IMG/VR virus record: IMGVR_UViG_3300032069_000016
Location: 1-52,440 of that record
Length of the DNA: 52,440 nucleotides
Source of the DNA: a virus
Reading direction: 5' to 3' (one strand)
In this document: positions 32,401 through 49,119 of the stretch, in pieces
Position numbering within the stretch: the first letter of the stretch is position 1
How the letters are laid out: the number at the start of each line of letters is the position of its first letter
Position numbers and translations under genes: made by a program
Notes under the pieces: model-generated
The model's database searches: none
What the model saw: only the letters and a program-made list of their open reading frames with translations
What the model was told of the DNA's origin: nothing

Positions 32401-33023
32401 CCGTTTACCGTCCCATCGGCTTGAAGCTGAGGCTTGCCTGCGGCAACCGATATGTTGCCATCGGCACTCCCCGAAGTAACCCCCGTATCCCAAAGGAGCG
32501 TTCCCGAACTGAATGTTGCCCCGCTGTCGGTAGAACGGCTGTACCATATTTCAAAGTGGGAAGTTCCGCCGTTTATCTTGAGCCAGTAAATATCTATGAC
32601 ATACTGCCCGTTAATCCAATCGGAGACTTCTATCGTTGCCTGACCTTTGAAAATGGTATCAAGCGTAACGGCTGGCGGATTCTCCCATTGAGCCGGGATA
32701 CTTCCATCCGTTATCTTCCAGAAACCCAATGCTGTGGCGACGTGCATCGGAGCCAACCGACCAGCTGCCAGAATCTTGCCATCCGGGGCAATAACTGCCT
32801 TACCATACGACTCTTTTGAGTAATCATTTTGTAAAATAAGTTCTCGGTCATAAATTATTGAATCGTCAATAATCTTGACCTTCATATACGGCCTGACGGC
32901 ATATTGTTGCTGGGCGGCCAAAAGCGGCTGGGTTAGCCACTTGTAACTTGAAACATCAAGCGTAATCCCAAGACCACCTTCAATTTTTATTTCCGCATCC
33001 GTTGTGAATGTTAAATCGGTCAT
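29406..33023 (-). CDS. Large tail protein (tip/baseplate) with BNR-like repeats
   Basis: 1205 residues, the largest gene. Residues about 130-330 contain beta-propeller-like phrases (YSRSTDSGATFSSGT, GTSWDSGETLW). The centre has LTLEIGNQNSKW and DDIQQNVSSNRNDLIITARD, like tail-tip proteins that meet the receptor. Two segments (DSFDGSTLSNWNQMNG and FEDRFFDASLWSGTFTL) look like LamG-type jelly-roll starts. Likely the tip or baseplate protein that carries receptor binding. Overlaps its neighbours at both ends. Confidence 0.75.
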   Translation of the reverse strand: MTDLTFTTDAEIKIEGGLGITLDVSSYKWLTQPLLAAQQQYAVRPYMKVKIIDDSIIYDRELILQNDYSKESYGKAVIAPDGKILAAGRLAPMHVATALGFWKITDGSIPAQWENPPAVTLDTIFKGQATIEVSDWINGQYVIDIYWLKINGGTSHFEIWYSRSTDSGATFSSGTLLWDTGVTSGSADGNISVAAGKPQLQADGTVNGAVFWTKVGGSSDQIESIAYKYFNGTSWDSGETLWSPKFVDTSEWLLHSLDVFTHDGAYDIIFSGYHKLLESTNYNFSLYQTQLTKLNGDIAKDIWQPAREVLASLSPSTTNRNSYIYPTFNFDGENLWLVFQGLTVDTMSESKAVAQKTNYFLMKSVDFVNFSYPTAIAKPAADNAYGLEFVDVLNINISAGIIRTACSFVKQGNYYFLSGNAALWRFPQKNIVADVSLDVVKLNIQESAGAPSALTLEIGNQNSKWVGPSPTETGYQAIAKNKKVMIYLGYYNADGIPEVAPRSTFLIDDIQQNVSSNRNDLIITARDDCSKRARVTVTRFPYSFEGVDYYADSFDGSTLSNWNQMNGTWEEESEVTGAYPPFHWIETTELIGSNARNPGNDVALITLSGFSIKRSEMMNCVLFKVPAVPFGGIAGEYRHSIVYAYWQDEDNWLRTRIFVENDNPTDVFGIIELSVAGVITTPVPEWTFSTSFPGGVSNIQGYIFPLLIQQFAFTKYRFTFGRPQATVGSPPDSANNLDMFEPYANQKVFDVDLDFVTNGISPTPKTLALGAAAWRPEFRHFKFCNYDESLNIKELMTNLATKAGTFKYQFENLFEDRFFDASLWSGTFTLDKRKLTMTANNEVRRTTPEIADGEVEFEAKLVPTDPSSDYGFDFIFRSKNFSAYQNYDHRYLARIQKQGTDVISAQFWRNGEVISTPDTMLISTAHEVDSGAPTAPIYSNLNIDLTQYHKYKVLYVKNWVSLFIDNQLVLAWYDDEQMKILLQTLGGLPEAFANGKIGFKTLANTTLVVKSIKSTMFFPQVAAFGLSPGDDIDSSIGHLIEILRSWHFSDLFGRFKAVVLKSTDPSSYSYQDQLWMHSADQSDKEYANQVTVVGDGVSAVARDNPSIGLNVFTREAIIVDYKITTLKDAQTRAQNELNDFNKFNSQIDPKQIINLGAEVFDVVHIKDVGLNSSGIDKDMRVYNQTINVDGHSNDYSIQLGTGTII

Positions 33024-35092
33024 ATTACAAATTCATATTCAAATACTAAAGCTACTGCGTAATTTGCGGCCGCTACCGCAGGCGGAAGCTCGGCATAGGT
33101 CTGGAATCTCAAAAACCCTAACAGCGAACTGCTTGCTCTGATAATCGGACTACCGCTTCCGTTGCTTCCTCTTTCTGGAATCAAGACCTGTGAACCCCCT
33201 CCGACTGGTATATCCGTTCCAGCGTAATTGGTCAGATTGCCTGGCTGGGCAGTTCCCTCTCCATAACCAAGCTCCTGAACCCGTATCCACTTTCCACTTA
33301 CAGGCGGGGTATTCTCCGTCAAATGAATTTCATCATCATAAGTCGTCAACTTGCAGTTGAATACCGCAACCGCCCCAACAACCAAGCTCCAATTATTGTA
33401 TATCCTGAATCTAATTATATCAGAGAGTTCCCCTTGCAGAACAGGCAGGACAACGCCATCTTTGGTCTGGGGATAGGTAATTGAAGTCAATTCAACGGAC
33501 GGATTGCTGTCGTCTCTAAAAGTAATATACGGGCCTACTGGCTGAACAATTATTCCGTCAGTTGTGAAGTTTTTATCTGTCAGAACGGCTACAATCCCGT
33601 CTGTGGTAAAAGTTTTTCCACCTACAACGAAAATAATTCCATCAGTTGTAAATGAAAAATCTACGAAAGGCACAACTATGATACCATCAGAACTGAATAA
33701 TTTGTCGCCAATTTGTAATACTCTTCCGTCAGTTGTGAACTCTTTATCGGTTGCTACCAGTATTAAACCATCACTCGTAAATGACTTTTCATTTATGGTA
33801 AGGATTATGCCATCATTCGTAAATTGTTTATCAAAGACCATTACAACTATTCCATCCGTGGTGAATTGCTTGTCATTGTCAAGGACTTTTATTATTCCGT
33901 CAGTATCAAAAGTTTTCTCCACGACTATCAAGACAATTCCATCTGTCGTAAACTCCTTATCGGAAATTACTAAAATTATCCCATCAGAAGTAAATCCTTT
34001 GTCAACCACAACAAGAATTATTCCGTCAGTTCCAAACCCCTTATCACTGAAAGCTTTGACTATCCCGTCATTAGTAAATCCTTTATCAATAACGATTTTA
34101 ACAATGCCATCGGTTGCAAATCCTTTGTCTGCGGTTGCCTTAACTATCCCGTCAGAGGTAAATGCTTTGTTCGTTGAAAGCAGAATATCAGAGGTAATCG
34201 TTTTAACTTGAACCTCTTTAACTATTCCATCGGTAGTAAATCCTTTATCATTCGTGCCGAATATGATTCCATCGTTATCCCACAACTCGCTGGGAACAAT
34301 CTTAACCCTACCATCCGAAGTTAAGGTCTTATCGGAGGACGCTTTCATCTTCCCGTCGGTAGTGAAGGTCTTATCTATGTTCTTTGTCTTTACGATTCCA
34401 TCAGAAGTAAATGTTTTATTCGTTGCCGCCGCCACACTATCATCAATAAATGTCGTTGAACCATTTGTCCCATCGCAGTGCATCAAAAGTTTCGTATACG
34501 AATCGGTGGTATATGCGGAAGTCGGCGGAGTAAAACCAGAAGTCCAGCGAACAATTCCTTTTGATACTCTTATTTCATCAATGTAACCAATATAAGAATT
34601 ATCAGTACTATCGGGTTCGCCACCGATATTTAAAACTCCAGTTGCATTATTCCAATAACTTCCTGTTCCCGATGCCTTTTCCACACCACCTACATAGATT
34701 TTGGTCGTGCCAGTAGATTGAGTTCTGGTAACTGCAACGTGTTGCCAAACATCCGCAGTTAATTTGAAAGTACCAGTTTGAAGTTCCGATACACCAGTCT
34801 TACCGACAGCTAAGGTTCTGTCTGAATAAAGATAGATAAACCAGTTTCCATCCGCATCAACCTGAATCTGACCTATTAGTTGCGCAGGATGAGTACCTCC
34901 AGTTGGGTTCGTCGCTGGCATGACCCAAAAGTCAACCGTATAATCATCAGCTGTGGCATCCCAGTCAGTATCATCGGGAGTACTTACTCGTGTATTATTT
35001 GTACCGTTAAAAATACCAGAAGCAGTCCCAAATTCTTTTTGGGCTGTGCTTAGTTGAGCATTGCCGTGGGCGGTTAAGATTTTCTGTGCCAT
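33020..35092 (-). CDS. Tail fibre protein: LamG domain plus 14-residue repeats
   Basis: 690 residues. Residues about 20-205 are a LamG/concanavalin-like jelly roll (TVDFWVMPATNPTGG, WQHVAVTRTQSTGTTKIYVG, GYIDEIRVSKGIVRW). Residues about 225-520 hold roughly 21 copies of a 14-residue unit with consensus DKxFTTDGIIxVxx (42 bp), the last ones very regular. The C-terminal 165 residues are a separate beta-rich domain. LamG domains bind sugars; the repeats probably form a beta-rich fibre shaft. The neighbouring gene shares the repeats. Confidence 0.8.
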   Translation of the reverse strand: MAQKILTAHGNAQLSTAQKEFGTASGIFNGTNNTRVSTPDDTDWDATADDYTVDFWVMPATNPTGGTHPAQLIGQIQVDADGNWFIYLYSDRTLAVGKTGVSELQTGTFKLTADVWQHVAVTRTQSTGTTKIYVGGVEKASGTGSYWNNATGVLNIGGEPDSTDNSYIGYIDEIRVSKGIVRWTSGFTPPTSAYTTDSYTKLLMHCDGTNGSTTFIDDSVAAATNKTFTSDGIVKTKNIDKTFTTDGKMKASSDKTLTSDGRVKIVPSELWDNDGIIFGTNDKGFTTDGIVKEVQVKTITSDILLSTNKAFTSDGIVKATADKGFATDGIVKIVIDKGFTNDGIVKAFSDKGFGTDGIILVVVDKGFTSDGIILVISDKEFTTDGIVLIVVEKTFDTDGIIKVLDNDKQFTTDGIVVMVFDKQFTNDGIILTINEKSFTSDGLILVATDKEFTTDGRVLQIGDKLFSSDGIIVVPFVDFSFTTDGIIFVVGGKTFTTDGIVAVLTDKNFTTDGIIVQPVGPYITFRDDSNPSVELTSITYPQTKDGVVLPVLQGELSDIIRFRIYNNWSLVVGAVAVFNCKLTTYDDEIHLTENTPPVSGKWIRVQELGYGEGTAQPGNLTNYAGTDIPVGGGSQVLIPERGSNGSGSPIIRASSSLLGFLRFQTYAELPPAVAAANYAVALVFEYEFVI
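33530..34420 (-). repeat. Tandem 42-bp coding repeats (about 21 copies)
   Basis: DNA of the DKxFTTDGIIxVxx repeats in the fibre gene. Copies have drifted in third positions but keep the reading frame and period. They create long shadow frames on the plus strand. Copy number could vary by recombination. Confidence 0.8.
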
Positions 35093-35103
35093 ATTATCTA
35101 AAC

Positions 35104-36897
35104 TTAAGTTTCGTCAAACTGAAAATAAAATACTTCTGCCGACTGGGCATTTGGTATTGCGTTAAAAGAAACATTCGCCTGTAAAACAACCCAGTCGGAT
35201 ATTTTGCCAGTTGACGGATTGCTTATTGAACCCGGGACAACAAGGGGCGACCCTATTACAAAGTCATCAATATCAACTGGAGCACCAGCAAGAGCAGGAT
35301 AGGAGCTTGTCGTGAGTTCTCTGTTGTCAGTCGCCTGCGTATAGGCACTGGCGGTATTTCCTTTTACCGAAACTCCATTGCCGAAAACACCGCCATCGGT
35401 ATAAAACTTGATATTGTTTATTGTCCCTATCGGACTTGTTAGAGCATCCAAATAAAATGATTTCCAATAGCTAAAATCCGTTCCCGATGTCGGGATACCA
35501 ACCCTATTCGTTCCGTTCACAACATCATCAGAACTGAATCTTAAATTAGAAATTATCGTATTGTCAGGAATTGCTCCCGTTGATTGCCTAACCCTTATGA
35601 CCGCATTGGTAGTAACGATTCCGTCCGAAGCAAAGTTTTTATCTTGAATAATCTTAACTATGCCATCGGTATCAAATAGTTCGCTGGGGACTATTTTTAC
35701 TCGGCCATCGGAAGTAATCGTTTTGTCAGTAATTACTTTGACAATTCCATTGGAAGTAAAGGTTTTATCTACAACTATTTTGACGATTCCATCAGAAGTG
35801 AAGGTTTTGTCAACGGCAACGGGTGGAGCACTATGCACCACTACTAATTTAGGGTCGGAAGATGTCCCATCAGTTTCAGAAGCCAATACGACAAGACCAA
35901 TTACTTGTCTGTCTGAACCGGTTATACCCGTTGAAGGAACAGGACTATCAGCCAAGTCAAATTCAGATTTAGTGCCAAAACGTGTCATTCCTGTTTTGGA
36001 GATATTGCCCAATCCAGTTGGATTAAGTGTAAAATCTGTATATGTTGAACCACCCACATCTATTCCTGATATTGGGATAGAAGTTGCTTGCTTTGTAACT
36101 AAACTCCTTGTTCTGTAATAATCACCATTTACGATTTCAGTATCACTGGCAGGGTCTGACATAGTCAGGGCAACACTATCGGCAATTTCTGTAATTTTAG
36201 ACGTTCCAATAAATGAAAAGGTAGCAGAAATAATATCGTTTGCGTCTGGGATGGGTGAAGTATCAAACAAGAAAAAAGTTCTGTAATTATCTCCAAATCT
36301 TTCTCCTTGGTTGGCACCCATAAAGATATCAACAGCTTGTATAGATGACGTAGAGCTTGAAGCACCAGCACCAGTCGTCTGTGCTCTTGCATTAGCCCAA
36401 CCAGTCGTCCAAAGCCACATTGTTACTTGACCATCCATTGATGGAAAAAAAGTATCAGTCGTATTACCAATTCTATCCTTAATGATTTGGCTATTTTCTT
36501 TTCCAACACATCCGATAGTATGGGCTAACGTTTGCCAAATTGCCTTAATAGGATTTTCAATAAAATTCGGAACTCTATTTTCATTTCCTCTTTTATCTAA
36601 CTCAATTCTAAAAGTGCCATCTTGAATGAGTATGGGTGGATTAAATATCCTAAATCTTTCTATCTCAACTGTGCCATCTCCAAATCCTAATTGTTTACCA
36701 GCTTTCCAAGCACGAGCCATTATCTCTACACCGTGTTGTCCGTTTATCTCTATCTTGTTAAGGGACTGAATTTCTACTTTTACACCATAAGTCGGGTCGG
36801 TATATTCTCCGACAAAATTAAGTTTGGCGATTTCCTCGCTTTTTATTCGGGATTGCTCTTGAGATGTTTTATTTCCCAGAAGGTCTTTAATCTTCAT
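35104..36897 (-). CDS. Tail protein with fibre repeats and C-terminal paralogous domain
   Basis: 597 residues. The N-terminal 330 residues are unique: an early segment (VEIERFRIFNPPILIQDG) then a beta-rich domain with FFLFDTSPIPDANDIISATF, which resembles DNRLRE-type domains. Residues about 375-440 carry five copies of the DKTFTSDGIVKxxx repeat. The last 160 residues (GTINNIKFYTDGG, GSISNPSTGKISDW, FYFQFDET) are a paralogue of the split gene at 37377-38060. Probably another tail-tip or fibre subunit. Confidence 0.7.
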   Translation of the reverse strand: MKIKDLLGNKTSQEQSRIKSEEIAKLNFVGEYTDPTYGVKVEIQSLNKIEINGQHGVEIMARAWKAGKQLGFGDGTVEIERFRIFNPPILIQDGTFRIELDKRGNENRVPNFIENPIKAIWQTLAHTIGCVGKENSQIIKDRIGNTTDTFFPSMDGQVTMWLWTTGWANARAQTTGAGASSSTSSIQAVDIFMGANQGERFGDNYRTFFLFDTSPIPDANDIISATFSFIGTSKITEIADSVALTMSDPASDTEIVNGDYYRTRSLVTKQATSIPISGIDVGGSTYTDFTLNPTGLGNISKTGMTRFGTKSEFDLADSPVPSTGITGSDRQVIGLVVLASETDGTSSDPKLVVVHSAPPVAVDKTFTSDGIVKIVVDKTFTSNGIVKVITDKTITSDGRVKIVPSELFDTDGIVKIIQDKNFASDGIVTTNAVIRVRQSTGAIPDNTIISNLRFSSDDVVNGTNRVGIPTSGTDFSYWKSFYLDALTSPIGTINNIKFYTDGGVFGNGVSVKGNTASAYTQATDNRELTTSSYPALAGAPVDIDDFVIGSPLVVPGSISNPSTGKISDWVVLQANVSFNAIPNAQSAEVFYFQFDET

Positions 36898-37376: not shown

Positions 37377-38060
37377 CTATGTTTCATCGTCAATGTGTTG
37401 CCTCTCGTTGCCGAGAGTATCGGACTTTACCTTTATCCACTTGGGATACTCCGTGTCAAGTCTCTACGCCTTCTCCTTTCGGAGCTTGGTTCGGTATTGC
37501 CCCAGAGGGGTTTCACCGAGTTTACGGAGTTACACAACGGGGATTGCTCCCCAAAGGGGCTGATAAAACAACCTGAAAGTCAGAGTTTCCGCACCTAATG
37601 CTCCTGCGACTGCCGCATCACTGACTACCGCCTGAAGTTCCACATAGTCCGAAATCTTACCCGTGCTTGGATTCGTAATTGAACCCGGAACGCTTAATGG
37701 ACTGGCCGATGTATAACTTTCCACATTCGTTGCACCCGTCAGTTCGTCTCCAGTTACTCCTTCTGTTCCCGTTGCCTGGACATAAGTAGCAACCGTTTTG
37801 CCTTTCAGAATTACCCCCGTCCAACCAATCGTCCCATCAGAAAAGAATCTGATGTTATTGATTGTTCCCGACGGACTTGTATCGGCATTCAGATATACGG
37901 TTTTCCAAAAGCCGTAGTTCGTCCCTGCTGGCGCTGGCTTGACTAACGGATTCGTAGTTCCTGGATTTGCCGTATCATCAGTATTGTGCCTCAAATTAGT
38001 AATCGTAGTTACATCTGGGGTTGTGCCTGTGCACTGCTTAATTGACACCGTTGCTGGCAT
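37377..38060 (-). CDS. Tail protein gene split by a group I intron
   Basis: Join of exon 1 (38060-37563) and exon 2 (37400-37377): 166 + 7 residues. Unspliced, the frame runs on into the intron and stops at 37530 with nine foreign residues. Spliced, it ends FRLFY-QHIDDET, matching the ending FYFQFDET of its paralogue at 35104. The body is beta-rich (GTINNIRFFSDG, GSITNPSTGKISDYV) and equals the C-terminal domain of that paralogue. Probably a tail or fibre subunit. Splicing is inferred from structure and protein fit. Confidence 0.75.
37401..37562 (-). ncRNA. Minimal ORF-less group I intron (162 nt)
   Basis: Read on the minus strand: P3 CTCCGT/ACGGAG, P4 TCGGT/ACCGA, P5 CCCC-TCT-GGGG, P6 CTCC-GAAA-GGAG, P7 GACTT/AAGTC, P8 TATCC/GGATA and P9 CTCTCG-GCAA-CGAGAG with a GNRA loop. 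P1 is weak: exon TTAT pairs with GTAA (T-G at the splice site); GTTG next to it pairs with the exon 2 start CAAC (P10). The intron ends in G. It is much shorter than most group I introns, yet the whole core is present. Boundaries are good to a few bases. Confidence 0.8.
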
Positions 38061-39102: not shown

Positions 39103-40656
39103 TTATCCTGCGTGATACTGCTGTTGCAGTATTCTTAGTATTTGCCGTGCGCTTTCTTCTCCCCCGCCCATTATATTGAAATAATTAGTGAAAACCACTC
39201 CTTGTCCTGGTGCTCCCATCACGCTTGGCGGAGTTACTGTTGGCGTTGGAACTGGCTTACCTGCTTTCGTCGGCTGGGTAGTAAATTGAGTTCCAGGAAT
39301 TTCAAGTTCAACTTCGGCTCTTCTGGCTGCCGTTTCCTTCGCCAATAATCTCCTTTGGGCCTCTGGTGTTAAAAGCGTCTCCTCGGCGGGTTTTATTCCT
39401 GCCCACGAAGCGGCAACATCTTCTACGCTTGACTTCAAGCCCTCCCAAAGCCCTTTTGCCGAGATAGATTTTACAAGTTCATTTATACCAGTAAAGAGAC
39501 CTTGGAGTGTTTTAATAGGGTGAACAACCCCTGCGATTGTTGTCCCCATCCCCAAAAGCAGATTTATAAATTCTTTGACAAAATCAACAATTCTGGGGTC
39601 GGTAAAAGCGGTTTTGAACTCATTCCACGCTCTCTTTATTTGGTCGGTTTCTGATACCCCTTTTTCAAACTCCTCATTCAAACTTTTCATATACATTATA
39701 TTGTCAATCTGTCTCTGTTTAATTTCATCAAAAGCGGTTACGGACGCACTCCTCAATTCCATAACTGCTTCTTTGTTCAGACCCCACATTTCACCCAAAG
39801 CGATTGCGGCCACAAGAGACCTGTTTCTGATTGCATCGGCGACTGCTTCAAAGGCGGCAACGATTCCTCTTTCTTCTATAAGCGTGCTAATCTGTTTTCC
39901 TGTTGCATTCAGATAATTGAGGGCTTCGCGAGGGTCATTTATTGCCTTTGTAATTGCCGCCATAACACTCACAACCGTTCCTCTCGTGAAACCTGCCTGC
40001 ATTGAAAAAGCGGCTAAACCCTCAACGGCATCTGTAAAAGTTGTAGCTTTTCTTAACAAGGGGCCAGCATCAACAACCATCTTAACAAATTCGTCCCAAG
40101 TGAAAGCGCTATTCTTCTGAGCGCTATTCAGATAATCAAACGCTTTTACCGCCGCGGGAACCGTATTGATGTTCCAAGCTTTCAAAACATCAATCATATT
40201 CATAATAGTGGTAACATAATCCAGTCCTCTTAACTCGGCTAACTTGGTGGACTGGGACGCAATTATCATCTGGACTGCACTATCAAAAGAGGTCTTGGAT
40301 AATAGAGCTAACCCCTTTGCGGTATCTTCAGTGCTGATAGTTGTCCCTATTGCAAGACTGCGAGCCGATTCGCTCATTTCTCCGATGTTCTCTGAGAACA
40401 CATCGGTTGCGCCAGCGGCGCTTTTCATCAATGCATCGTTAAAACTGAGCACCCGAGTAATCGCCAATGCAAACATAGCGGCAATACCGCTAATAACAGC
40501 GGGTGATATAGTGCGAGCCATTATCATTTGCCAGTTCACTTCCTGCTTATTCATTGAACTGACAAAACTTGTAACTGCAGTTATCGCCCTCTTTAATTGA
40601 GATTCAAGCCCGCTTCTGTCCGCCTCTATAAGGATTTCTAAGGTATCAATTACCAT
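39103..40656 (-). CDS. Tape measure protein
   Basis: 517 residues. Strongly helical with hydrophobic stretches (AVISGIAAMFALAITRVLSF, INLLLGMGTTIAGVV), a pattern of small residues, and a TPTVTPP Pro-rich segment near the C-terminus. Position right after the chaperone frameshift genes and before distal tail genes is diagnostic. It sets tail length; 517 residues implies a rather short tail. Residues about 60-330 look like a TMP core of the kind with SFNDALMKSAAGATDV. Confidence 0.9.
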   Translation of the reverse strand: MVIDTLEILIEADRSGLESQLKRAITAVTSFVSSMNKQEVNWQMIMARTISPAVISGIAAMFALAITRVLSFNDALMKSAAGATDVFSENIGEMSESARSLAIGTTISTEDTAKGLALLSKTSFDSAVQMIIASQSTKLAELRGLDYVTTIMNMIDVLKAWNINTVPAAVKAFDYLNSAQKNSAFTWDEFVKMVVDAGPLLRKATTFTDAVEGLAAFSMQAGFTRGTVVSVMAAITKAINDPREALNYLNATGKQISTLIEERGIVAAFEAVADAIRNRSLVAAIALGEMWGLNKEAVMELRSASVTAFDEIKQRQIDNIMYMKSLNEEFEKGVSETDQIKRAWNEFKTAFTDPRIVDFVKEFINLLLGMGTTIAGVVHPIKTLQGLFTGINELVKSISAKGLWEGLKSSVEDVAASWAGIKPAEETLLTPEAQRRLLAKETAARRAEVELEIPGTQFTTQPTKAGKPVPTPTVTPPSVMGAPGQGVVFTNYFNIMGGGEESARQILRILQQQYHAG

Positions 40657-45175: not shown

Positions 45176-45606
45176 TATACTGATTGAGCCGCCCATCTTA
45201 CCCACCCGTCTTTTGTTCTGGGCGAATTATTCCTGTTAATCATATCATCAACTTTCTCGCGTATGATGTCCTCGTCTTCATCGGGATTCTCTCTTTCAAA
45301 CCCGAGAGATAATTTTTCCCAAACTTCTGCTTGCGTATCAGCATCTAATTCCCCATAGTAAAACCTCTTGGGGACATACTCGCCCGCTTTTTTAACTTCC
45401 TCCTTCACAATCGTAAGTCCGAGTTGCTGAGCAATATAATTTATGTGTTTACTTGTGGTTGGGCTCCACCAGCCGTGAACAATTAACTTGTCTCCCTTAA
45501 TCGTAGCGACGTGGGTTCCATAACTATAAACCTTATCGCCTATGACTTGGAGATTTTGTTTATATCTTTCCATTTGTTGCTTCCAAAATTCTTTGAACTT
45601 ATTCAT
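45175..45606 (-). CDS. FKxFWK-motif protein, DUF8033-like
   Basis: 143 residues from ATG 45606, which overlaps the glycosyltransferase stop (ATGA). N-terminus MNKFKEFWKQQMERYKQN carries the motif. Next, SYGTHVATIKGDKLIVHGWW, then SPTTSKHINYIAQQLG matches the conserved part of DUF8033 proteins of phage as I know them. C-terminus acidic (ENPDEDEDIIREKVDD). Family function unknown. Confidence 0.65.
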   Translation of the reverse strand: MNKFKEFWKQQMERYKQNLQVIGDKVYSYGTHVATIKGDKLIVHGWWSPTTSKHINYIAQQLGLTIVKEEVKKAGEYVPKRFYYGELDADTQAEVWEKLSLGFERENPDEDEDIIREKVDDMINRNNSPRTKDGWVRWAAQSV

Positions 45607-46799
45607 AGATGTTTTGCCAATGCTTCGTGGAACATTTTTATCTTGTCCCGCCAAAGCCAATTAGCTTTTACATACTCGGCAGCTTTTCTGCCCTTCTCCT
45701 TAACCTCGTCCTGATGCTCATAAGCATATCTTAATCTGAAAATCAATTCATCAAGATTCGGCTCTGCCCATTCGCCGCAGTCCTCTTTATAAACCTTCTT
45801 TGTAAAATTGTCCGCTGGAACCATTTTGAAATCGTTTAACATCCAGCCGACTTCTTCGTTATTATACTCCGCCATTCCACTCCAATTTGTCGTAATCGCT
45901 GGCACTCCCGTAGCCATCGCCTCTAATGGCGGAAGGCCGAATCCTTCGCCTCTTGACGGATAAACGAAGCAATTAATTTTCTTAAAAAATGTTTCAATCA
46001 ATTCGCTATGCGGAATTCCGTTGAACGCTTGCTGAACTTCCACTCTCTTATCTTTGACCATAAACGGATAATACGGCAACGATGTCTTATTTATCAGCTT
46101 TACCTTCTGCTTTGATGAAAACGCCCTTCTAAATGCTTCCACCAACAAATCCGTTCCTTTCCTTACGGTCAATGCCCCCAAATGGCCGAAAGTAAATACT
46201 TCGTTATTTCTTTCAAGCGGATAAAACTTTGTCTCGTCAATCCCCAGCTGGGTCAGCTCAACGGGGATTTTTACTCCGCTATTCGCCATCATTCCGATAT
46301 TCTGCTTGCAAGGAACGCAGACCGCATCAAGCGAATTCAACCTCGGAACCCAGCTCTCTGGTACCCGCGTCGTCTCAAACATAGTGAGGGCGATATTCTT
46401 GGCGAATGGACTGCTACGCCAATGCTCCTTCGGCTGTTCGTGCCAGACCATCGCCATATCGGGCGGGATTTCTCTCTTGGCATTCCTGATAACCTTGTCT
46501 GGTTCACCAATCAGCTTTCCAGTCCAGCGAATATCATATCCTGCCTGCTGACTATATTTGAGCAGGTTATACATAGTATTCCCGTAACCGCTTGTGAAAT
46601 CCGCTTGCCCGACAATACCGAAACGCTTTTCCTGCCAATGCTGCGGGTTATATGTTTTTTGTAAATCCGCCTTAACGGAATACTTCTGGCATAGTTCAAG
46701 CAAATCGGGAAAGGGCATTTCAATAACTACTCCCGTGTCATACATTTTCCCACCGCAATTCACTACACATACTTTTGTATTATCTATAATTGCTTTCAT
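45603..46799 (-). CDS. GT-B fold glycosyltransferase
   Basis: 398 residues. The C-terminal half has the GT4-type nucleotide-sugar site: FGHLGALTVRKGTDLLVEA, then FVYPSRGEGFGLPPLEAMAT (the E-x7-E motif) and GVPAITTNWSG. About 50 extra N-terminal residues precede the first Rossmann half (FGIVGQADFTSGYGNTMYN). Such enzymes transfer a sugar to an acceptor. Position right after the major capsid gene suggests capsid glycosylation or a surface modification. A strong hairpin separates it from the capsid gene. Confidence 0.8.
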   Translation of the reverse strand: MKAIIDNTKVCVVNCGGKMYDTGVVIEMPFPDLLELCQKYSVKADLQKTYNPQHWQEKRFGIVGQADFTSGYGNTMYNLLKYSQQAGYDIRWTGKLIGEPDKVIRNAKREIPPDMAMVWHEQPKEHWRSSPFAKNIALTMFETTRVPESWVPRLNSLDAVCVPCKQNIGMMANSGVKIPVELTQLGIDETKFYPLERNNEVFTFGHLGALTVRKGTDLLVEAFRRAFSSKQKVKLINKTSLPYYPFMVKDKRVEVQQAFNGIPHSELIETFFKKINCFVYPSRGEGFGLPPLEAMATGVPAITTNWSGMAEYNNEEVGWMLNDFKMVPADNFTKKVYKEDCGEWAEPNLDELIFRLRYAYEHQDEVKEKGRKAAEYVKANWLWRDKIKMFHEALAKHL

Positions 46800-46877: not shown

Positions 46878-49119
46878 TTAGGCGGGGTCTGCTACATTCT
46901 TTAGGACTCCTACCCACGGCTCTGCTTTCAACGCTAATACCAAGTATTCGTTGATATAGAACCGCACGGTATCCGCTAACTTGGCGAGTTCGGTTCGGCC
47001 AAGTGGAACGAGGTCAACCATCTGAACTCCTTGCTCATCGTGCCGCAAGAAGTAAACATTGGAGACCAACGAACCAGTTGCACCTGACGACCCGTCAGCT
47101 TGGGCGGGATACGGAAGAGCAGGATTGGCAAAGAAATCACCGATTACGGGAACAGGGCCAAGGGGCGACTGATACTGAACGATATGCTCACCAGCAAAGA
47201 ATGTTCCTGCCTGTTCAACATTGATAAAGTAGCGGGCGGCAGTGGCAACAATTTGGTTCACAACTGCTTGTAAGCCAAAGGACAGATAAATTCCGTCCAA
47301 CTTGTTTCCACCCTGCAACCTGACTTTCTTTATGATTGCATCAAAGGCGGGAATTACCACGCCGACAGCCGTCAAAGCCGCACCTGAATTGTCCCCGACA
47401 TTGGTAACGATTTGCTTGTCAAATCCGTCAAACGCCAACGGGGTAACTGCGGAATCGGCTTTGAAATCAGCCCACTCTTCGGCTTGGATTATTCTTCGCA
47501 GGGACGCTTCGGCTATCTCGGCCTCAATGTCAATGTAACTCCTGCCTGATGCAATCATCGGGCCAGTAATTACAGCGGTCGTGCCAAGATACTTATATGC
47601 CAACTGTTATACTCTTTTTAGAGCAGATAGGACATTTCTGCCTATCTCTTATAGTTTCCTATAAGTTCGGACTATATCTTCGCCTTAATTTTTTTGACAC
47701 AGTTAAGAAGATTCTTTTTGAGTTCTCTGCTCCAGAAGCGGAGAACCGAGTATCCATTTTGTTGTAGTATCTTATTGGTTTCTTTATCTCTTGAATTATA
47801 TCTTGGATAATTATGCCAATACTCGCCATCGGCATAGATACATACACGCTTGTTCGGGATAAAGGCATCTGGAAATGTCGTGAACCGATTAAGATTTATT
47901 GGATAATTCTTATGGTATTTTATTTTCAACTCATCAAGTATATTCCACAGGATTATCTCAATGTCGGTCTGCTTCCAGTGGCGGAAACCGTTAACTTTTC
48001 GTTCACCATTGCGAAACTGACTTCTGACCTTTTTTGTCATAGTTCGCGTATATTTTGCGACCCTTTTGTCGGTTTCTTTGGTAAGTCCTTTATTCCAAGG
48101 AGTTTGGCCAGTTAATCCTTTATTCCACCCCGCTATTCTTTTTATCCAATCTTTTCGGTAGCAAGCGCGGGAACAGAACTTTCGTTTAATCCGATTCCCT
48201 CGCTTTGTGAATGATTTATGACACTCCTTACATTTGAACATCCTCCTTTTTCCTCTTATCGTTGCCTTGACAATATGCCTTTTGCCATTACGAATGCGTG
48301 TATATCTTCTAACTTGTGTTAAGGTGCTTTGCGTATAGTCTCTACGGACTCTCTGTTTTGTATTCATACCTATATTATAAGATATTTATAGGCAGAAGTC
48401 AAACAGGTTGCCTCGGTATTGTCATACCCAAACTGGGTTTAGATTCCACCGATACAGCAAAGTTTTTATAGACGACCACATATTTTTAGCCGTCTTCTGA
48501 ACATACGCCGGGTCTGTTGAACTCGGTAACTGCCCATCTGCATAGAACAAGTTCACCAACCCTAACGGGCCATCTGCGACCGTATCCAACCTTGTTCTCT
48601 GGTTCCACAAGTGGGCGAGACCTTCTCCCTTGATTCTTGATACTCTGTCTCTAAACGGCGTGAGACGGTCTGAAAGAACGACTATTGCCGCTTCCAAATC
48701 CTGCGATTTCTGTAATCTCCAATTACTTGGAGTGTCGGACTATATCATCACCCAAGATTTTTTTAACAAAGGGACTCTCCCTTACATTGCCTCACTTAAT
48801 CGTTTCCTATGTTCTAATGAACGCCTTGGGGTCTCGCGTGTAGTCTCTACGGACTTTCTATTTTTGGGTCTCATAATCATACCTCTATAGTATGCTGTTT
48901 CTGCTTGCTTGTCAAGACCTTGAAATAGGTTGCCTCGGTATTGTCCCAATGGGAGTTCACCGATACAGCGAGATTTTCTTATACTGCATTACTGCGGTAT
49001 GCGCGCCAAGATATTTAACGCGCCAACAAGGAACTGGGAATTGGCCCCGCGAACGATGTGTCCACGGATTTTGCAAATCTATCCAGCGCTTTCTCTAACC
49101 TGCTTAATGATTCGGTCAT
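46878..49119 (-). CDS. Major capsid protein gene, interrupted by two group I introns
   Basis: Join of exon 1 49119-49018 (34 codons), exon 2 48703-48488 (72 codons) and exon 3 47600-46878 (240 codons plus stop), 346 residues in all, a normal size for an HK97-fold capsid protein. The junctions read SLLAR-QDLEAA and QKTA-AYKYLG, both in frame with no missing base. Exon 3 alone looks like the E-loop to A-domain part; exon 2 carries N-arm helices (VVLSDRLTPFRDRVSRIKG). It follows the prohead protease. The unspliced frames stop in the introns, so capsid synthesis depends on splicing. Confidence 0.85.
47672..48367 (-). CDS. Intron-encoded homing endonuclease (Vsr/EDxHD-like)
   Basis: 231 residues. 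CKECHKSFTKR ... FCSRACYRK is an N-terminal zinc finger. Two GWNKGLTGQTPWNKGLT phrases resemble NUMOD DNA-binding modules. The C-terminal part (FTTFPDAFIPNKRVCIYADG then EYWH ... GYSVLRFWS) has the DxF ... YxDGxYWH layout of Vsr/EDxHD endonucleases. It would cut an intronless capsid gene and spread the intron. Start (48367) and stop overlap the conserved P7 strands. Own promoter at 48374-48402. Confidence 0.82.
   Translation of the reverse strand: MNTKQRVRRDYTQSTLTQVRRYTRIRNGKRHIVKATIRGKRRMFKCKECHKSFTKRGNRIKRKFCSRACYRKDWIKRIAGWNKGLTGQTPWNKGLTKETDKRVAKYTRTMTKKVRSQFRNGERKVNGFRHWKQTDIEIILWNILDELKIKYHKNYPINLNRFTTFPDAFIPNKRVCIYADGEYWHNYPRYNSRDKETNKILQQNGYSVLRFWSRELKKNLLNCVKKIKAKI
48374..48402 (-). 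promoter_or_regulatory. Promoter of the intron endonuclease
   Basis: Minus strand TTGACT (48402-48397), 17 bases, consensus TATAAT (48379-48374). The predicted start point, 7 bases after the -10, is the A of the ATG at 48367, so the message would be leaderless. It lies within the intron P5-P7 region. Confidence 0.75.
48782..48880 (-). pseudogene. Homing-endonuclease remnant (NUMOD3 fragment) in intron 1
   Basis: Frame of 32 codons from ATG 48880 (or 48874, which has GAGG 7 bases upstream). The end reads RRSLEHRKRLSEAM, the NUMOD3 pattern EHRKxLSEA, and then TAA. No catalytic domain. It begins at the same place, over the P7 strand, as the intact endonuclease of intron 2, so this is the leftover of a former intron ORF. 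The stop arrives 28-32 codons after the start. Confidence 0.65.
48887..48915 (-). promoter_or_regulatory. Promoter inside intron 1
   Basis: Minus strand TTGACA (48915-48910), 17 bases, TACTAT (48892-48887), preceded by GGTC. Directly ahead of the endonuclease remnant. It occupies the same position relative to the intron core as the promoter in intron 2. Confidence 0.55.

Follow-up and report, generated by a model that had tools for sequence, protein, structure and literature searches.

A compact group I intron of 180 nt very probably lies at positions 37570-37391 on the minus strand of a virus sequence, where it interrupts the tyrosine codon of a C-terminal FRYDET sequence in a tail-module gene and is predicted to splice. 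The sequence is IMG/VR virus record IMGVR_UViG_3300032069_000016, the whole of which (52,440 bases) forms the window analyzed here. RF00028, the Rfam model of group I introns, matched 37401-37579 on this strand over its full length (1-253 of 253), with a score of 47.0 bits and an E-value of 6.6e-9 in a search of the whole window, or 6.9e-11 when only 551 bases were searched, and the core helices P3, P4, P5, P6, P7, P8 and P9 are complete. The initial annotation of this DNA had already placed an ORF-less group I core near the 3' end of the gene, and this part of it holds. The score falls slightly below the RF00028 gathering score of 50 bits, which is a cut-off and not a biological feature, and for that reason a default Rfam scan of the window lists only the intron at 48716-49027. 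No homing endonuclease gene of its own was found in the intron, there being no ORF inside the 180 nt. The intron is genuine but ordinary; it is a further member of a well-known family and leaves what is known of group I introns unchanged.

The ends of the intron were located by enumerating 404 candidate splices near both boundaries in which U precedes the intron and G ends it, and scoring each translated product against a profile built from 49 distinct relatives. The best of the 404 was 37571|37570 ... 37391|37390, at 158.4 bits, followed by a runner-up at 154.0 bits, and it was the only one that restored the relatives' C-terminus gap-free; its product is the same as that of L005, an intronless relative, in the last six residues. 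On both strands of the whole window, a G followed by a completion of the form [Y/F/W]DE[T/S/I/V/A]-stop occurs once, at 37391. Because the profile score is the best and this completion is unique, the intron is assigned to 37570-37391, boundaries on which homologues, P1, P9.0 with its omega-G, and P10 agree and which have the U before the intron and the G at its end. Exon 1 (37571-38060, minus strand) begins with the ATG at 38060 and ends in ...CUUUCAGGU, its last base being U; the intron itself reads 5'-UGUUUUAUCAGCC...CAACACAUUG-3', and exon 2 (37377-37390, minus strand), ACGAUGAAACAUAG, completes ...FR-Y-D-E-T-stop. The predicted junction, CAGGT^ACGATGAAACATAG, would thus take the intron out from between the first and second bases of the tyrosine codon and yield a 167-aa product ending ...LTFRYDET*. 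Ribosomes reading into the unspliced intron would stop at an in-frame UAA (37532-37530, minus strand) that lies at the 5' edge of P3 and ends the ORF 37530-38060.

The relatives of the interrupted gene provide the reference for this reconstruction. L005, which is 69-71% identical, ends in ...TTFRYDET, and the exon 1 product aligns with it at 71% identity with a gapless C-terminal alignment. A profile-guided scan of IMG/VR recovered 55 relatives, 52 of them with a complete C-terminus; none of the 52 has an intron at this place, and their C-termini nearly always read ...[FW][RQK]YDET or something close to it. Relatives with YDET or a similar ending are encoded at 55 or more IMG/VR loci. Within the window, the C-terminal domain of a 597-aa protein (35104-36897, minus strand), whose gene lies two genes downstream of the small one (37391-38060, minus strand), is a diverged copy of the small protein, about 46% identical. 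This paralogous domain ends in ...YFQFDET, with which the ...LTFRYDET of the 180-nt splice aligns gap-free; the initial annotation had equated the paralogue's C-terminus with that of its own spliced product, ...LFYQHIDDET, which shares only DET with it.

Searches for the same intron elsewhere, and for the gene in two other collections, were negative. RF00028 matched in 0 of 49 records bearing relatives of the gene, giving no intron-bearing homologue at the same site; an exact core-pattern search of IMG/VR found no second copy of the intron; and the interrupted gene had no match in the phage collection or in GTDB species genomes. PHROGs and Pfam assigned no family to the protein, to five of its relatives or to the 597-aa protein. 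Since no family matches the protein, its assignment to the tail module follows gene order, with a tape-measure-like gene nearby (39103-40656), and is to be read as putative. Also in this region, a gene at 33020-35092 (minus strand) encodes a 690-aa protein with an N-terminal Laminin_G_3 (concanavalin-like) domain, which by its position is probably a tail fibre or adhesin.

The RNA of the 180-nt intron can be followed helix by helix along the minus strand. P1 (37558-37573) pairs exon GGU and intron UG with CAGCC in 5 bp closed by a 6-nt loop, with a U.G pair at the splice site, and it appears in the unconstrained minimum free energy (MFE) fold as well; the exon contributes only 3 of these base pairs. 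P1 had earlier been described as a weak helix of 4 bp that might call for host or phage factors, a suggestion that rested on the wrong P1 and is unsupported here. P10 is common, although not universal, in group I introns. Its 5' strand, UGUUUUAUC (37562-37570), pairs with GAUGAAACA of exon 2 (37380-37388) in 9 bp including one G.U, in a register about one nucleotide off the ideal; when placements in the window are drawn at random, 0.14% of them give a run of 9 or more. The MFE fold contains a small P2 hairpin, GGGGA-GCAA-UCCCC (37539-37552), so that the earlier view of an intron free of peripheral domains was nearly right, but overlooked this hairpin, whose GCAA loop recurs in P9.

In the core, the 5' strand of P3, ACUCCGU (37524-37530), located from the RF00028 match and the pairing table, pairs with ACGGAGU (37448-37454). 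The stretch 37469-37519 contains P4 (UCGGU/ACCGA), P5 (CCCC-UCU-GGGG), P6 (CC/GG) and P6a (CUCC-GAAA-GGAG), and here, as for P8 (AUCC-CAAGU-GGAU, 37435-37447) and P9 (CUCUCG-GCAA-CGAGAG, 37402-37417), the RF00028 match, the pairing table and the MFE fold all contribute. The pairing table also gives P7, the guanosine-binding helix, in which GACUU (37458-37462) pairs with AAGUC (37423-37427), and P9.0, in which AUU pairs with GAU (37419-37421) and is followed by the omega-G at 37391, the 3' strand and this G together spanning 37391-37394. P6 and P8 are short. Unconstrained folding of 37580-37391 recovers P1, P2, P3, P4, P5, P6a, P8 and P9, with a z-score of only -2.4.

The major capsid gene of this phage (49119-46878, minus strand) is interrupted by two further group I introns. 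Their borders were fixed by comparison with an intronless gene that is 85% identical (L118). The first (mcp1; 49017-48704, 314 nt) has no endonuclease that was found, and the second (mcp2; 48487-47601, 887 nt) carries an endonuclease ORF (47672-48367) with DUF559/Vsr-like and HNH-like features; the RF00028 matches at 48253-48497 and 47648-47754 are the two ends of this 887-nt intron. Each follows a U and ends in G, and each has a P1 with U.G and a 6-bp P10. A glycosyltransferase gene (45603-46799, minus strand; phrog_2170, 9.5e-35) sits directly downstream of the capsid gene, within the structural module. The core helices pair in all three introns of the phage, and the three cores can be aligned: every one of the 96 cells counted is paired, and both partners have changed in 16 of the 32 core pairs, in an alignment from whose counts P6, which MAFFT did not align, was omitted and in which the loops of P5, P6a and P8 were shortened by hand and P3, P7 and P9 left uncut. 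In P3, five of the six counted pairs covary with the mcp introns, and the outer pair of P7 is U-A in the tail-module intron versus A-U in the mcp introns, both sides having changed.

A covariance model of the three introns was run on the window and on 60 viral loci, which had mostly been picked by the P4-P5 pattern of the 180-nt intron, and gave 63 matches. The 57 distinct matches found on viral contigs have 93.7% of their cells paired, compared with 62.2% in shuffles and 38-47% when the alignment is slid, although the alignment was fitted to the structure and the counts therefore lean towards it. Cores of this sort are common: P3-P9 spans of about 120-135 nt are also present in L095, L146, L081, L115 and L116, there with more surrounding sequence or in an intron that could not be bounded. 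Related capsid genes are likewise split by group I introns in L146 (1970-5036), L141 (847-1101) and L124. L146 has three interruptions in one capsid gene; the introns of L146 and L141 occupy sites other than those in the window, and the capsid gene of L124 is split where the first capsid intron of the window sits (after LLAR). In an intron in the capsid region of L095 (4028-4457, minus strand), an ORF for an HNH endonuclease precedes P3. With 96.9 bits against model R1, the core of this intron closely resembles that of the 180-nt intron, and it is possible that the L095 intron offers a picture of what an endonuclease-bearing form of the 180-nt intron may look like.

Three other readings of the element were weighed. 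The initial annotation proposed an intron of 162 nt (37562-37401) and a protein ending ...LFYQHIDDET. These ends also have a U before and a G at the end and leave the frame open, and the Rfam match stops at 37401. The match end, however, is not the intron end: the true 3' ends of mcp1 and mcp2 lie 13 and 47 nt past P9, in ...UCG and ...UUG, and that of the 180-nt intron lies 11 nt beyond it. Moreover, the shorter version leaves no P9.0, adds six residues present in none of the 52 relatives, and scores 148.2 bits, down with the unspliced protein (148.3 bits) and well short of the 158.4 bits for the 180-nt product, whose predicted ending, YDET, replaces the HIDDET expected earlier. The 162-nt boundaries were rejected on the relatives' endings and the profile scores, and are now highly improbable.

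That the intron has decayed, splices poorly or not at all, and leaves a protein ending ...LFYQPLWGAIPVV is very unlikely, if a little less so than the 162-nt version. The frame does stay open for 10 codons past 37563 before a UAA, and a 176-aa tail product could be tolerated, but every core helix is intact, the restored exon match is exact and the two-sided change in P7 keeps the pair. Least credible of all, with hardly any probability left to it, is a chance resemblance or a non-intron RNA, for instance a terminator or an array of regulatory hairpins, which several stable hairpins at a gene-end position might suggest; against it stand the RF00028 E-value, the covariation among introns and the conserved C-terminus restored by the sole gap-free U|G pair. 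The 180-nt group I intron thus remains the preferred reading.

Minimal group I introns are known, among them that of the Azoarcus tRNA-Ile gene, which is about 200 nt long. In the Azoarcus intron the loops of P2 and P9 dock on P5 and P8 (PMC2813881). The 180-nt intron resembles it in being compact and in having small P2 and P9 hairpins with GNRA loops, and its L2 and L9 GCAA loops may, by analogy, stabilize it through similar tetraloop docking. The host gene is a different one, however, and the likeness is one of architecture. Phage introns and their relatives in a Bastillevirinae study of 2025 range from 173 to 3279 bases, with a mean of 802 (PMC11878797). These, too, are group I introns that interrupt protein genes of phages, and their range includes 180 nt, but they mostly carry endonuclease genes and reside in polymerase and terminase genes. 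The earlier emphasis on very small size was therefore justified, whereas the claim that the intron is near the smallest functional size was not: 180 nt is close to the bottom of the range but no record, 173 nt having been reported.

The closest counterparts by description are found in Cluster J mycobacteriophages, whose capsid and tail gene introns splice by RT-PCR; BAKA and Optimus have a tail gene intron of 265 bp without an endonuclease, and LittleE a capsid gene intron of 819 bp with one (PMC3706429). Shared features are capsid and tail gene introns in one phage group, a tail intron without an endonuclease, and the U that precedes and the G that ends the intron. The Cluster J tail intron is longer (265 bp versus 180 nt), and the likeness is drawn from descriptions; the phage of the window, unlike those of Cluster J, has two capsid introns and a tail one together in a single phage, and is known here from its sequence. 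At the sequence level, P3-P6 matches Escherichia phage 13a with 92.9% identity across 42 nt and Aeromonas phage PT2 with 91.8% across 49 nt. In these T7-like phages the matching stretches are at interrupted DNA polymerase genes (gene 5), loci that differ from the present one in having an endonuclease ORF and in the gene that is interrupted.

Group I introns are removed by two transesterifications started by guanosine. The tail-module intron, which is expected from its sequence to splice, would follow this pathway: an exogenous G bound in P7 would attack just 3' of the U with which CAGGU ends, the base that forms a pair with G in P1; once released, the intron's 5' end would pair with exon 2 (P10); the omega-G at 37391 would enter the G site; and the exons would be joined as CAGGU^ACGAUG, encoding the 167-aa protein. 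Because it has no endonuclease, the intron is probably unable to move, or else a similar intron moved it or left it behind. A more ambitious combined claim is unlikely to hold as a whole: that few complete natural group I introns of protein genes are smaller, that this one splices efficiently with L2/L9 GCAA contacts and no protein help, and that the endonuclease of the related capsid intron moves it in trans.

For annotation, the correct ends set right a gene terminus which automatic annotation would miscall, in an intron that the Rfam gathering cut-off misses, and the tail-module intron illustrates that the end of a covariance-model match must not serve as the splice site. As a phage whose three introns share one core type, one of them stripped to 180 nt, this virus is a handy case for the question of minimal intron size, and it also suits the question of how group I introns spread among structural genes.
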